From: Candidatus Woesebacteria bacterium RIFCSPLOWO2_01_FULL_39_23
GTDB taxonomy: Bacteria > Patescibacteriota > Microgenomatia > UBA8517
Reading direction: 5' to 3'
DNA: 48,805 nucleotides
Assembly (NCBI GenBank): GCA_001793095.1
Contig: MGHG01000016.1
Location: 1 to 48,805 of the forward strand
How positions within the stretch are numbered: the stretch's first letter is position 1; every line of letters starts with the position of its first letter. The notes below the pieces were generated by a model. The model saw only the letters and a program-made list of their open reading frames with translations, was not told where the DNA came from and made no database searches. A program made the position numbers and the translations under genes. Positions 44,352 through 48,705 of this stretch are shown piece after piece.

Positions 44352-44780
44352 TTAGATAATCTCCATTCTTTTTGCTAATTTTTTACAACTTTGAGATGCC
44401 TTGGGTAAATAATACCAAATGACGTATAGTGCAATTCCCGATCCGAGTGAATCAAAAATTATATCCCGCAGGGTCGGTTCTCTACCGGGTGTAAAAGATT
44501 GATGATACTCATCTGTCGTTCCGTACAAAAATGCAGTCGCCAAGGCAGTGTAACCGGCTTTTTTCAAATCGAAGTCACTCTTCCGTAATGCTCTATACAA
44601 TAGTGTAGTAAAAACGGCATATTCGACTATATGTGCAGTTTTTTTAACAATAAAATCCTGCCAATGAATTTCTGAGGTACGGGTTGTCGGATTAGCGGAA
44701 AACAAAAATATTACTATCGCCCATAGGAGAAAAGGTAACCAATAACCGAAAAATATATGTACTTTTTCATTTTTGTTCAT
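44352..44780 (-). CDS. VanZ-like membrane protein
   Basis: Four hydrophobic segments with the VanZ hallmarks WAIVIFLFSANP early, KTAHIVEYAVFTTLLYRAL, then DEYHQSFTPGREPTLRDIIFDSLGSGI. I start at ATG 44780 (MNKNEKVH), which overlaps the upstream gene by 14 bases. The longer frame from 44837 lacks family similarity. The family is linked to teicoplanin resistance and to envelope functions; its exact role is unknown. Confidence 0.85.
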   Translation of the reverse strand: MNKNEKVHIFFGYWLPFLLWAIVIFLFSANPTTRTSEIHWQDFIVKKTAHIVEYAVFTTLLYRALRKSDFDLKKAGYTALATAFLYGTTDEYHQSFTPGREPTLRDIIFDSLGSGIALYVIWYYLPKASQSCKKLAKRMEII

Positions 44781-45678
44781 CTTCTCTAGTAATATTACTA
44801 CCTTTTCGCTTGTCTTTGAAATATAAACCTGCCGCACCTCCGATAAAAACCAAGCCTGTCGTAATTATAATAATCGGAAGAATTTGGATTTTTGGTTTCT
44901 TTTCCTCTTTTGTTCCCAATACTTCTGCGTCGCCACCATTATTCTGAACTTGATTTCTTAATTCATCTACTCCAACGTCATCCGGTAATTCTTGCGACTT
45001 ATCGGTCGGTTCCGGCTTCGGAGAAGGGATAGTTGGCGATGTCGGTTTCGGTGTCGAGGATGGTTTTGGTGTGGGCGTATTAGTCAGCTTGGGAGTTGAA
45101 GTTGGTTTGGGGGTCGAAGTCGGTGGAACTGGTGTATTAGTCGGCTCCGGTATTTCCGTCGGCTCAGCTGTGGGAACGGGACAAGGATCTAGTGTTCCAC
45201 CTTCATTTGAAGACTCCTTAGTTGATACGGCGAAGTGATCAATTGTCTGGTTACCATCAGGATATCTACCTACCGAACCTAAATAAGTTGGTGGAACACA
45301 TACACCACCCTTATCTCCATATGCAATTTCGTCGACAACTTCTGTTTTACCAGGTCTATATAAAGTAATAATATCGCCGTATTTATTCAACCTATCTGAG
45401 ACGGGAATTACCACATAAGTAGTTTGATTCGAAGGTCCAACCAAACTTCCCTGGGGAAAGGTATAAAGGTCAGAGGCTGTACCATTATCATCCAAAACCC
45501 AACCCGAAATATCTATGTCTTCAAAAGCATAAAGTTCAATCCAATCTGGGGAATCCCATATTCCTAGTTCGTTAACCAAAATCTGAGCAGATGCGGGTGA
45601 CGATAGAAGAAGGAAACTTATTAATACTACACTCGAAAATAATATAGTATGTAAAATTAACTTCACGGTATTACTCAT
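44767..45678 (-). CDS. Membrane-anchored lamin-tail-domain protein, 303 aa
   Basis: A signal peptide (about 1-31, ending SPASAQ) leads to a lamin-tail domain at about 32-155 (ILVNELGIWDSPDWIELYAFEDIDISGW, typical first strands). A long PT/PK-rich linker follows, then AEVLGTKEEKKPK, a C-terminal helix and a basic tail. Lamin-tail domains on bacterial surfaces are thought to bind other surface polymers. It is the third such domain in the window, after 29115 and 30558. Confidence 0.82.
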   Translation of the reverse strand: MSNTVKLILHTILFSSVVLISFLLLSSPASAQILVNELGIWDSPDWIELYAFEDIDISGWVLDDNGTASDLYTFPQGSLVGPSNQTTYVVIPVSDRLNKYGDIITLYRPGKTEVVDEIAYGDKGGVCVPPTYLGSVGRYPDGNQTIDHFAVSTKESSNEGGTLDPCPVPTAEPTEIPEPTNTPVPPTSTPKPTSTPKLTNTPTPKPSSTPKPTSPTIPSPKPEPTDKSQELPDDVGVDELRNQVQNNGGDAEVLGTKEEKKPKIQILPIIIITTGLVFIGGAAGLYFKDKRKGSNITREDEQK

Positions 45679-45875: not shown

Positions 45876-47042
45876 TCAATAGTTAATATGGAGATAATAC
45901 GTTTCGAGGTCATTTTCGTCGTGGTTTACTCTGACGTATCGAAGTCTGCATCCACCCGAACCCGCATAACTTCCTCTGTATAAAGTACCCCCCCTTACCG
46001 CCTTCACTGTTGCCGAGGAGTTACTATCTATATCAATACCGTTATGAAAATTATAAACACGCCCGACCCAAGTATTTCTGACTGCCCAAGTTGAACCGAA
46101 ACCCTGCGAAAATGAAATTTGTTCATTTATCGGCCAATTCCATGAACCGCTTGGATTAAAAGCATCCCCATCACCACTGCCGCAGGAGGAACCCGAACAG
46201 TTTTCATAACTTACTCCGCTTCTTAGATAACTAAAGGGGTTTAATACCGTACCTCCCTGACCTATAATAAAGTGGAGATGGTCCCCGCTTGAATTACATG
46301 ATGCACCCTGAATAATTGACGCGATTCTGTCACCCTCGTTAACATGACCCACTTCCGACTCCTGCCCCTTTCCGGCAATAATAGCCTGGATTGCCTCAAA
46401 TTCAGATCGCGCTTGTGATAAAAGCTGTTGATACTTAATCTCATCATTCTTTGTTTGTTCCAATAGTCTTGTTTTAGCCGACTTCTGAGAAGCAAGAGAT
46501 CGTTTTTGAGATTCCAGCTGATTCTGAAGTTCCTCCTGAGTAGACTTCTCCTCTAAATACGCCTCCTGTGCAACTTTCAGTTTATCAAGTAAGGATCTGT
46601 CGGCTTCCTGTATTCTTTTAAGATAATGAAAGCTCGATACTGTTCCCTCAAGATTGGGAGATGTAAAAAGAAGTAAATATGGCTCACTAAAACGTGACAT
46701 CTTGTAGGTCTGATTCGCCCGTATGACAAAAGCGTCCTTCAGTGAGTCTAATGACCCTTGCAGTCGGTCAATTCTTCCCCCTAAAAGAAGTATTCTCGCC
46801 TCGGTCTGGGATATTTTTAAGGTTGTAAGCTTTATTTGAGCGTCATATTGAGCAATTTGATTTGAAAGTGTTGATTTTTCCGCACCAAGCCTTTTTAATT
46901 CGTTTTCATATTTTTGAATTTCCTCGCTTAATTGTGTAAGTTTAGAAGCGTCCTGTGCTTTGACGGGAAGGTATGCAAATACTATTCCCAGTAATATTAT
47001 TGAAAAGACAAATGTGAAGAAATATTTCAGGAAAATCCGCAT
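45876..47042 (-). CDS. EnvC-like coiled-coil M23 peptidase with circularly permuted catalytic domain
   Basis: A signal peptide (1-29), a long coiled coil (about 32-225), and then an M23 endopeptidase domain whose halves are in reverse order. First comes the normal C-terminal half: GHVNEGDRIASII...SGDHLHFII (His255-x-His257), NPFSYL. Then a Cys/Gly/Ser linker. Then the normal N-terminal half: WPINEQISFSQGFG...FHNGIDID (His333, Asp337)...KAVRGGTLYRG...TYYLHINY, where the protein ends with His385. All zinc and catalytic residues are present. It is the last gene of the ftsE-ftsX operon (ATG at 47042 shares a base with the ftsX stop region) and should cut peptidoglycan at division. Confidence 0.85.
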   Translation of the reverse strand: MRIFLKYFFTFVFSIILLGIVFAYLPVKAQDASKLTQLSEEIQKYENELKRLGAEKSTLSNQIAQYDAQIKLTTLKISQTEARILLLGGRIDRLQGSLDSLKDAFVIRANQTYKMSRFSEPYLLLFTSPNLEGTVSSFHYLKRIQEADRSLLDKLKVAQEAYLEEKSTQEELQNQLESQKRSLASQKSAKTRLLEQTKNDEIKYQQLLSQARSEFEAIQAIIAGKGQESEVGHVNEGDRIASIIQGASCNSSGDHLHFIIGQGGTVLNPFSYLRSGVSYENCSGSSCGSGDGDAFNPSGSWNWPINEQISFSQGFGSTWAVRNTWVGRVYNFHNGIDIDSNSSATVKAVRGGTLYRGSYAGSGGCRLRYVRVNHDENDLETYYLHINY

Positions 47043-47950
47043 TATTTTTTACGTCTGGCACGAGACACTGCCAGTATACTTCCTGTCAAGGACAATACTA
47101 TACCTATCAAAACCTCGGATCCCAAAATAATAAGAAGAATAATTAGTAATCTTAGAGTATTTGATGGTAACACCGGAATATCCCCGAAATAGCGGATCAA
47201 GGTGGGAGTGCTATATAAAATCAATATAAATGAACTTAACCAACCGATGAATACTCCGATGAGTGCATAGAGTACCGCCTCAATTAAAATCGGTGAGCGA
47301 ATAAATCCGGGAGTAGCTCCGATCAAATCGAGTATTTCTATCTCACCCCTTCTCGCAGTAATTCTCATGCCGATAATTATCAAAATTACCAAAAGAGACG
47401 TTCCCAATAAAAAGCCTACAAAGACCGATCCCCCAACCCTAATATAATAAGTTACCTTTCTTAGCCTCCCGACAACATCAGTCAAACTCGACTCCCCGCC
47501 CAAACTGGCAGTAAAACCAACCTCTTCAACTATGCTTTCTTTCTTAACTTCATCGATCACTGATTCAGCGTCCGTCAGATCGTTTACCGAAAACTCCAAA
47601 CTCGCCGGAAAAATTGAGGGGCTTACTAGTTCAGACAGAAGCGGATTTTCGCTCGTCGCCTCTTTATAAATCTCAAGAGCTTTTTCTTTTGATATATAAC
47701 TGACATTTTTTAATCTTGCATCTGAGGCTAATTTAGCCTCAAGTATCGTAATATCAGATTCAGTTGTATCATCTTTCAAAAATGCAATTATTTGTGGTCT
47801 GGTCTCAAAATACCTGATTACCTGTCCCGAAGAATATATAAAGATCGAAAGCACGGTCGCCACAAAAAAGGTTGTGGTTAAAACAAAAATTGCAGCCATC
47901 GCCTGAAAGGGAGATCTCCTGATACTATTTAAGGCAGTTTTTAAATGCAT
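47042..47950 (-). CDS. ftsX: Cell-division ABC permease FtsX
   Basis: The FtsX plan: a cytoplasmic N-terminus (HLKTALNSIRRSPFQ), helix 1 (AAIFVLTTTFFVATVLSIFIY), and an extracellular domain of about 115 residues (FLKDDTTESDITILEAKL...ISKEKALEIYKEA). Three further helices follow (including IGMRITARRGEIEILDLIGAT). I start at ATG 47950, one base after the ftsE stop. The frame from 48043 would overlap ftsE by 92 bases. FtsEX transmits ATPase-driven movement to the peptidoglycan hydrolase encoded next. Confidence 0.93.
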   Translation of the reverse strand: MHLKTALNSIRRSPFQAMAAIFVLTTTFFVATVLSIFIYSSGQVIRYFETRPQIIAFLKDDTTESDITILEAKLASDARLKNVSYISKEKALEIYKEATSENPLLSELVSPSIFPASLEFSVNDLTDAESVIDEVKKESIVEEVGFTASLGGESSLTDVVGRLRKVTYYIRVGGSVFVGFLLGTSLLVILIIIGMRITARRGEIEILDLIGATPGFIRSPILIEAVLYALIGVFIGWLSSFILILYSTPTLIRYFGDIPVLPSNTLRLLIILLIILGSEVLIGIVLSLTGSILAVSRARRKK

Positions 47951-47951
47951 A

Positions 47952-48662
47952 CTATTTTTCTTCGGCCACTTCTTCTTTAGGTTTTTCCTTATGACTTTCT
48001 TTCTTGCCGCTGTCCTTGACAATTTTCCCTTTTTCAATTTCAATCACTCTTTTTTTCATCTTATCAATTATACCCTTATGATGCGTTGCCATAATAATTG
48101 TTTTTCCCTCTTTATTGATTTTATCGAATAAATCCATTATCGAGTCGGCGGTCTCCCAGTCAAGATTACCTGTCGGCTCATCCGCTAAAATTACTTTCGG
48201 ATTTATTACCAATGCCCTCGCCAAAGCAGTTCTTTGCAGTTCGCCACCTGCAAGTTGGGAAGGGAAAAAATTACCCCTTTCCATTAAACCCACCAGCTTG
48301 AGCACATGATTCACTCTTTCTTTCCACTCGTTTTGTGGAACTTTGGCAACTGCGAGGGCCACCTCAATATTCTCCCGAAGGGTTCTCTCAGATAATACCT
48401 TGAAGTCCTGAAAAACTACGCCAATTTGCTGGCGGATTTTTGGGATTTCTTTATCCTTAGCCTTGGTTATATCCTCTCCGTCGATAATAATTTGTCCGGT
48501 ATCGGGTAAATATTCGCGTAATATTAACTTTATAACAGTAGTTTTACCAGCTCCCGATGCTCCTGTTATAAAAACAAACTCCCCATTTTCTACCTCGAAG
48601 GTGATATCTTCGACTGCTTTAACATCACCGAAGGATTTTGAAACTTTCTCGAGTTTTAACAT
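47952..48662 (-). CDS. ftsE: Cell-division ATPase FtsE
   Basis: An ABC ATPase with Walker A ITGASGAGKTTVIKL, Q-loop VVFQDFKVL, signature LAGGELQRTALARAL (LAGGE instead of LSGGE), Walker B VILADEPTGNLDW and H-switch MATHHKG. A Lys/Glu-rich tail of about 25 residues is added. I start at ATG 48662 (MLKLEKVSKSF). The ATG at 48677 lies within the -10 box itself, so it cannot be on the mRNA. Confidence 0.94.
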   Translation of the reverse strand: MLKLEKVSKSFGDVKAVEDITFEVENGEFVFITGASGAGKTTVIKLILREYLPDTGQIIIDGEDITKAKDKEIPKIRQQIGVVFQDFKVLSERTLRENIEVALAVAKVPQNEWKERVNHVLKLVGLMERGNFFPSQLAGGELQRTALARALVINPKVILADEPTGNLDWETADSIMDLFDKINKEGKTIIMATHHKGIIDKMKKRVIEIEKGKIVKDSGKKESHKEKPKEEVAEEK

Positions 48663-48675
48663 GATAATAGAACTC

Positions 48676-48705
48676 ATTATAGATTAACAAATGAAGTCGA
48701 TCCAA
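48676..48705 (-). promoter_or_regulatory. Promoter of the ftsEX operon
   Basis: On the minus strand TTGGAT (48705-48700), an 18-base spacer and TATAAT (48681-48676). The start codon at 48662 is about 13 bases downstream, implying a leader of only a few bases. Confidence 0.6.

Follow-up and report, generated by a model that had tools for sequence, protein, structure and literature searches.

The window, by which we mean the whole 48,805-nucleotide stretch of DNA analysed, carries on its reverse strand ftsE (47952..48677), encoding the ATPase of the division ABC complex (NCBIfam TIGR02673, 265.7 bits against a cut-off of 264.85), followed by ftsX (47042..48043; Pfam PF02687, E 7e-12), whose product retains the FtsX extracellular domain (FtsX_ECD, PF18075, E 3e-14). 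The true start of ftsX is probably a later ATG, which would make its overlap with ftsE smaller. Immediately after this pair lies a gene for an M23 protein of 388 residues (47042..45879, stop codon at 45878-45876; reading frame checked on the sequence), and its ATG overlaps the ftsX stop codon as TAATG. The FtsE and FtsX matches confirm the ftsEX operon context given in a preliminary description of this DNA, here in a tiny-genome bacterium of the Patescibacteria. The next gene downstream (44767-45678, reverse strand) codes for a secreted protein that resembles lamin-tail-domain proteins (LTD match 29.1 bits, below the cut-off) and has a Pro/Thr-rich stretch and a C-terminal transmembrane segment; lamin-tail-like proteins are also found downstream of the hydrolase at L035, L036 and L057.

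The M23 gene product begins with a signal peptide (residues 1-28, 46959..47042; helix 3-23 in the structural model) with a putative cleavage site deduced from VKAQ. It continues as an antiparallel coiled coil (residues 30-222, 46377..46955; model helices 30-54, 59-118 and 131-222), presumably the part that binds FtsX. The M23 domain follows in two halves of swapped order. Its second half is placed first (residues 229-275, 46218..46358) and contains VNEGDRI, HLHF with H255 and H257, and NPFSYL; a linker measured between the halves (residues 276-300, 46143..46217) joins the old C and N termini; and the first half is placed last (residues 301-388, 45879..46142), with WNWP, HNGID (H333 and D337) and YYLH (H385), ending in INY and the stop, so that the chain terminates three residues past the catalytic His385. 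The order noted earlier, in which HLHF (His255, His257) precedes HNGID (His333, Asp337) and YYLHINY (His385), is correct in both sequence and position.

Profile comparisons identify this order as a circular permutation. Pfam PF01551 matched the window protein in two separate stretches of swapped order, the better of which aligned residues 332-387 with model positions 2-53 of 96, and no colinear match over the whole model was found. In profile-profile alignment against a canonical M23 domain alignment, drawn mostly from coiled-coil relatives of the same phylum, the C-terminal part of the permuted family aligned with canonical columns 1-83 (score 144) and the N-terminal part of the permuted domain with columns 83-146 (score 109). 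Writing the permuted profile twice in tandem restored a single contiguous alignment over columns 1-146 (score 246, E 5.7e-39), which is the signature of a circular permutation; since only the duplicated profile aligns right through, we regard the protein as a permuted variant and not as a standard M23 member. The column mapping places the break exactly between YxHL and VxxGDxI, where the preliminary description had put it, and agrees with the proposal that joining the ends would recreate a normal M23 domain; nothing is lost or repeated at the cut. Among relatives, 83 of 92 permuted proteins terminate 2-5 residues past the catalytic His, the linker between the halves is 5 to 29 residues long in 77 of the 78 measured, and in none of 93 permuted genes did the following 600 nt contain a leftover M23 second half. 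Judged by its sequence, the M23 domain of the window protein is a circular permutant.

Structure prediction agreed with the suggestion that the two halves pack together. AlphaFold2 with 42 homologues modelled them as one confident domain (pLDDT 95.1, pTM 0.90), in which the predicted strands coincide with the M23 motifs of both halves. When the domain model was searched with Foldseek, no M23 structure was among the matches listed (PDB and viral models) in this order-dependent search. Because Foldseek alignments follow chain order and its structural alphabet encodes how far apart in sequence contacting residues lie, the missing M23 match is weak as counter-evidence. The whole model matched coiled coils, the best being Vibrio cholerae EnvC in the FtsEX-EnvC complex (E 2e-3). 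BFVD A0A510E7V3_3, a viral model of 1191 residues, aligned with the model of the permuted domain over 177 columns (E 0.011, probability 0.98, TMq 0.40) and may represent a further permuted M23.

A scan of 84,980 species genomes recovered 29 relatives, all of them in records labelled Patescibacteria, related candidate lineages or unnamed bacteria. The swapped order is common to L005-L021 (Woese-, Blackburn-, Levy-, Davies-, Roizmanbacteria and others) and was found in more than 90 homologues from about 30 GTDB families, a conservation far above chance. All 19 genomes of the window's own GTDB family had a match to the gene, which ran end to end in 14 and covered the coiled coil only in 5. Of 143 evenly drawn Patescibacteria genomes (completeness at least 90%), at least 39 had a match through both halves in permuted order, two of these 39 being incomplete matches; the permuted enzyme is thus present in at least a quarter of the genomes sampled, and the idea that the order might be family-wide in Patescibacteria is borne out. 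Loci newly listed from this sample, whose sequences we read directly, were permuted except for L171, the second match in genome G034, which spans the permuted profile yet has the canonical order and was rejected; G034 is still counted as a carrier through its other gene, L110. No relatives were found in phages or in IMG/VR, and a plasmid search yielded nothing beyond matches of half a domain to ordinary Enterococcus M23 proteins. Among loci sampled by similarity to the window protein, ftsX adjoins 70 of the 75 classified permuted genes, the adjacent ones coming from 29 families, and 2 of the 22 classified canonical-order coiled-coil M23 genes. Three permuted genes with no recognisable ftsX close by, L165 and L166 (family f30) and L164 (family f39), belong to a divergent lineage of the permuted form.

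Could the swapped order be an artefact, created by misassembly of two M23 genes or by a frameshift? The chance is vanishingly small: the order recurs in genomes from independent projects, including the chromosome record CP066693.1, the 14 genomes of the own family match end to end, the reading frames are open without stops, and none of the 93 genes is followed by a second half. Conservation and the missing downstream half together rule out the misassembly, frameshift and two-gene readings, including the misassembly that the preliminary description had itself considered. We judge it highly improbable that the halves swap between two chains in a domain-swapped dimer. Such an exchange would be favoured by the roughly 29-residue linker of the window protein and by its coiled coil, which could dimerise. 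Against it, many members have linkers of only 5-6 residues, and the prediction for a single chain is a confident one (pTM 0.90). Linkers this short imply that the old termini must lie close together. A cysteine in the loop before HLHF (Cys249, 46296..46298) and one in a hairpin of the other half (Cys365, 45948..45950) tend to occur together (51 members with both, 3 with the first only, 18 with the second only and 16 with neither; Fisher p 6.5e-6, uncorrected for phylogeny). They are candidate partners in a disulfide across the halves, and their covariation fits single-chain packing and a domain swap alike.

The zinc motifs HxxxD (H333/D337) and HxH (H255/H257) and the YxH motif (H385) are all present in the window protein and conserved in A1 and A2, so the earlier statement that no metal ligand is lost is true for this protein. 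Over 44 homologues H255, H333, D337 and H385 are invariant and H257 is nearly so. HxHF and HxxxD are both found in 72 of 88 permuted domains; HxxxD is missing in about 13 of the 88, many of them from family f31, so not all permuted members need be enzymes. In f31 (L095, L112, L118, L124, L125, L130 and L168-L170) the His of HxxxD is lost and HxHF and YxH are kept, and these domains are possibly EnvC-like non-enzymes. One otherwise intact homologue (L016:3932-5206, forward strand) has HTPF in place of HxHF and lacks one zinc ligand. Amidase_3 (PF01520) was not found in the window genome, and it was likewise missing from 16 of the 19 genomes in its family and from 15 of 16 genomes with the permuted gene.

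These observations bear on whether the window protein might be a catalytically silent activator of the EnvC type that switches on a separate septal amidase, which we consider unlikely. The operon and the coiled coil are as in EnvC, and some permuted members (f31) lack the HxxxD His. In Escherichia coli EnvC the M23 domain no longer has its catalytic residues and serves to activate AmiA/B, its groove being blocked by a restraining arm (PMC7668044). However, all ligands are intact in the window protein and in 72 of the 88 members, whereas the active site of E. coli EnvC itself (L163) is degenerate by sequence and lacks them; the window genome has no Amidase_3; and in relatives the same coiled coil bears a cysteine-peptidase head, either C39-like or CHAP. 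The retained zinc and catalytic residues and the genome without Amidase_3 favour a direct FtsEX-controlled hydrolase similar to PcsB or RipC, and we favour the reading that the window protein would be the endopeptidase itself, unlike E. coli EnvC. On this reading it would be catalytically active, cleave peptide cross-links and bind FtsX. The name 'EnvC-like' in the preliminary description therefore stands for architecture and operon but probably not for function.

How often the permutation arose is a separate question. In trees built on 126-128 columns, 82 of the 88 permuted domains cluster together (support 89); the other six, L022 and L093 among them, lie outside this main clade, and three changes of domain order are required on a careful tree. 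These six rows and three changes would point to more than one origin, which we nevertheless find doubtful given the grouping of the 82, the small number of columns and an AU test in which a single clade for all permuted rows kept in the careful tree was not rejected (p 0.36). In family f58 (L096, L100, L111), a permuted M23 gene comes after ftsE-ftsX and a canonical one after that, both with coiled coils; from such a tandem a permutation could plausibly arise by duplication. The ORFs retrieved included no tandem intermediate of the form A-B-A-B or B-A-B.

Taken as a whole, the locus very probably encodes a secreted, FtsEX-linked peptidoglycan hydrolase that is an old, heritable circular permutant of M23 and is controlled by FtsX. 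In this permutant the linker connects the original M23 ends, and the new ends of the chain lie between the strand of the catalytic His (YxH) and the hairpin of VxxGDxI. The two halves would together make a single domain of M23 type whose active site is complete, where H333, D337 and H257 would hold zinc and H255 and H385 would be catalytic. The coiled coil would bind the extracellular domain of FtsX, and ATP hydrolysis by FtsE would move it and so control the enzyme at the septum. In the model the coiled-coil helix runs to residue 222 and the first domain strand starts at 227, and no separate element, helix or loop, resembling the EnvC restraining arm lies between them. Canonical-order relatives mostly have 10-24 extra residues at this junction (up to 74), a comparison in which the zero gaps of permuted members arise partly by construction, as the profile ends were chosen by hand. 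The short junction and its longer counterparts suggest that coupling from FtsX to the active site may be stiffer in the permuted M23: a helix fused straight to the active-site half could pass the movement of FtsX on to the domain with no restraining arm like that of EnvC, and the permutation may thereby change how FtsX controls the enzyme. That it evolved once, early in the phylum, as the standard FtsEX partner, with helix fusion replacing the restraining arm by direct mechanical gating, is a version that we hold only tentatively, as possible but short of an even chance.

We found no description of a permuted M23, LytM or metallopeptidase in the open-licence papers searched, and a 2022 review of M23 (PMC9662197) does not mention permutation. 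A natural circular permutation of M23 thus appears to be unreported, with a prior description possible in other literature. M23 is one of the commonest wall-hydrolase folds of bacteria, and its permuted form, which is old and widely distributed, goes with a single division operon in a very large group of bacteria that are mostly uncultured. Owing to the permutation, these proteins come up in profile searches as split matches or are under-called, the best Pfam match falling on half a domain, and the division hydrolases of Patescibacteria are probably under-annotated as a result. Permuted M23, canonical M23, C39 and CHAP heads on one scaffold amount to a natural experiment on how ATP hydrolysis by FtsEX is turned into wall cutting.

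With EnvC of E. coli and V. cholerae the window protein shares the signal peptide, the antiparallel coiled coil, a C-terminal M23-type domain and the FtsEX partner. EnvC has the normal order, a degenerate site and a restraining arm, whereas the window protein is permuted, has a complete site and comes from a genome without Amidase_3. LytM and lysostaphin share its H(x)3D and HxH zinc motifs, the YxH His and the GDxI and NPxxYL elements; they end in NPxxYL, whereas the window protein, its linear order swapped, ends in YLH. Coiled-coil M23 proteins of canonical order (Doudnabacteria, Portnoybacteria and others) are homologous to it in the coiled coil and in both M23 halves, but their order is normal and they rarely adjoin ftsX. 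Catalytic heads are interchangeable on one FtsEX-linked coiled-coil scaffold. C39-like cysteine peptidase heads occur on it at L047, L049, L052, L075, L079, L086-L088, L090, L094, L097 and L108, of which L047, L049 and L052 exemplify what a coiled-coil-only match in the own family can mean, and CHAP heads at L098, L104, L105, L122 and others. Streptococcus PcsB, Bacillus CwlO and Mycobacterium RipC are coiled-coil hydrolases that are directly controlled by FtsEX and are themselves the enzyme. Their heads are CHAP or NlpC/P60 cysteine peptidases, whereas that of the window protein is M23, and CHAP heads are also found on its scaffold in Patescibacteria relatives. The permuted NlpC/P60 proteins (YaeF/LRAT-like) show that circular permutation has a precedent in a hydrolase superfamily that includes peptidoglycan-cleaving enzymes (PMC6403190), but they are cysteine peptidases of a fold unrelated to M23.
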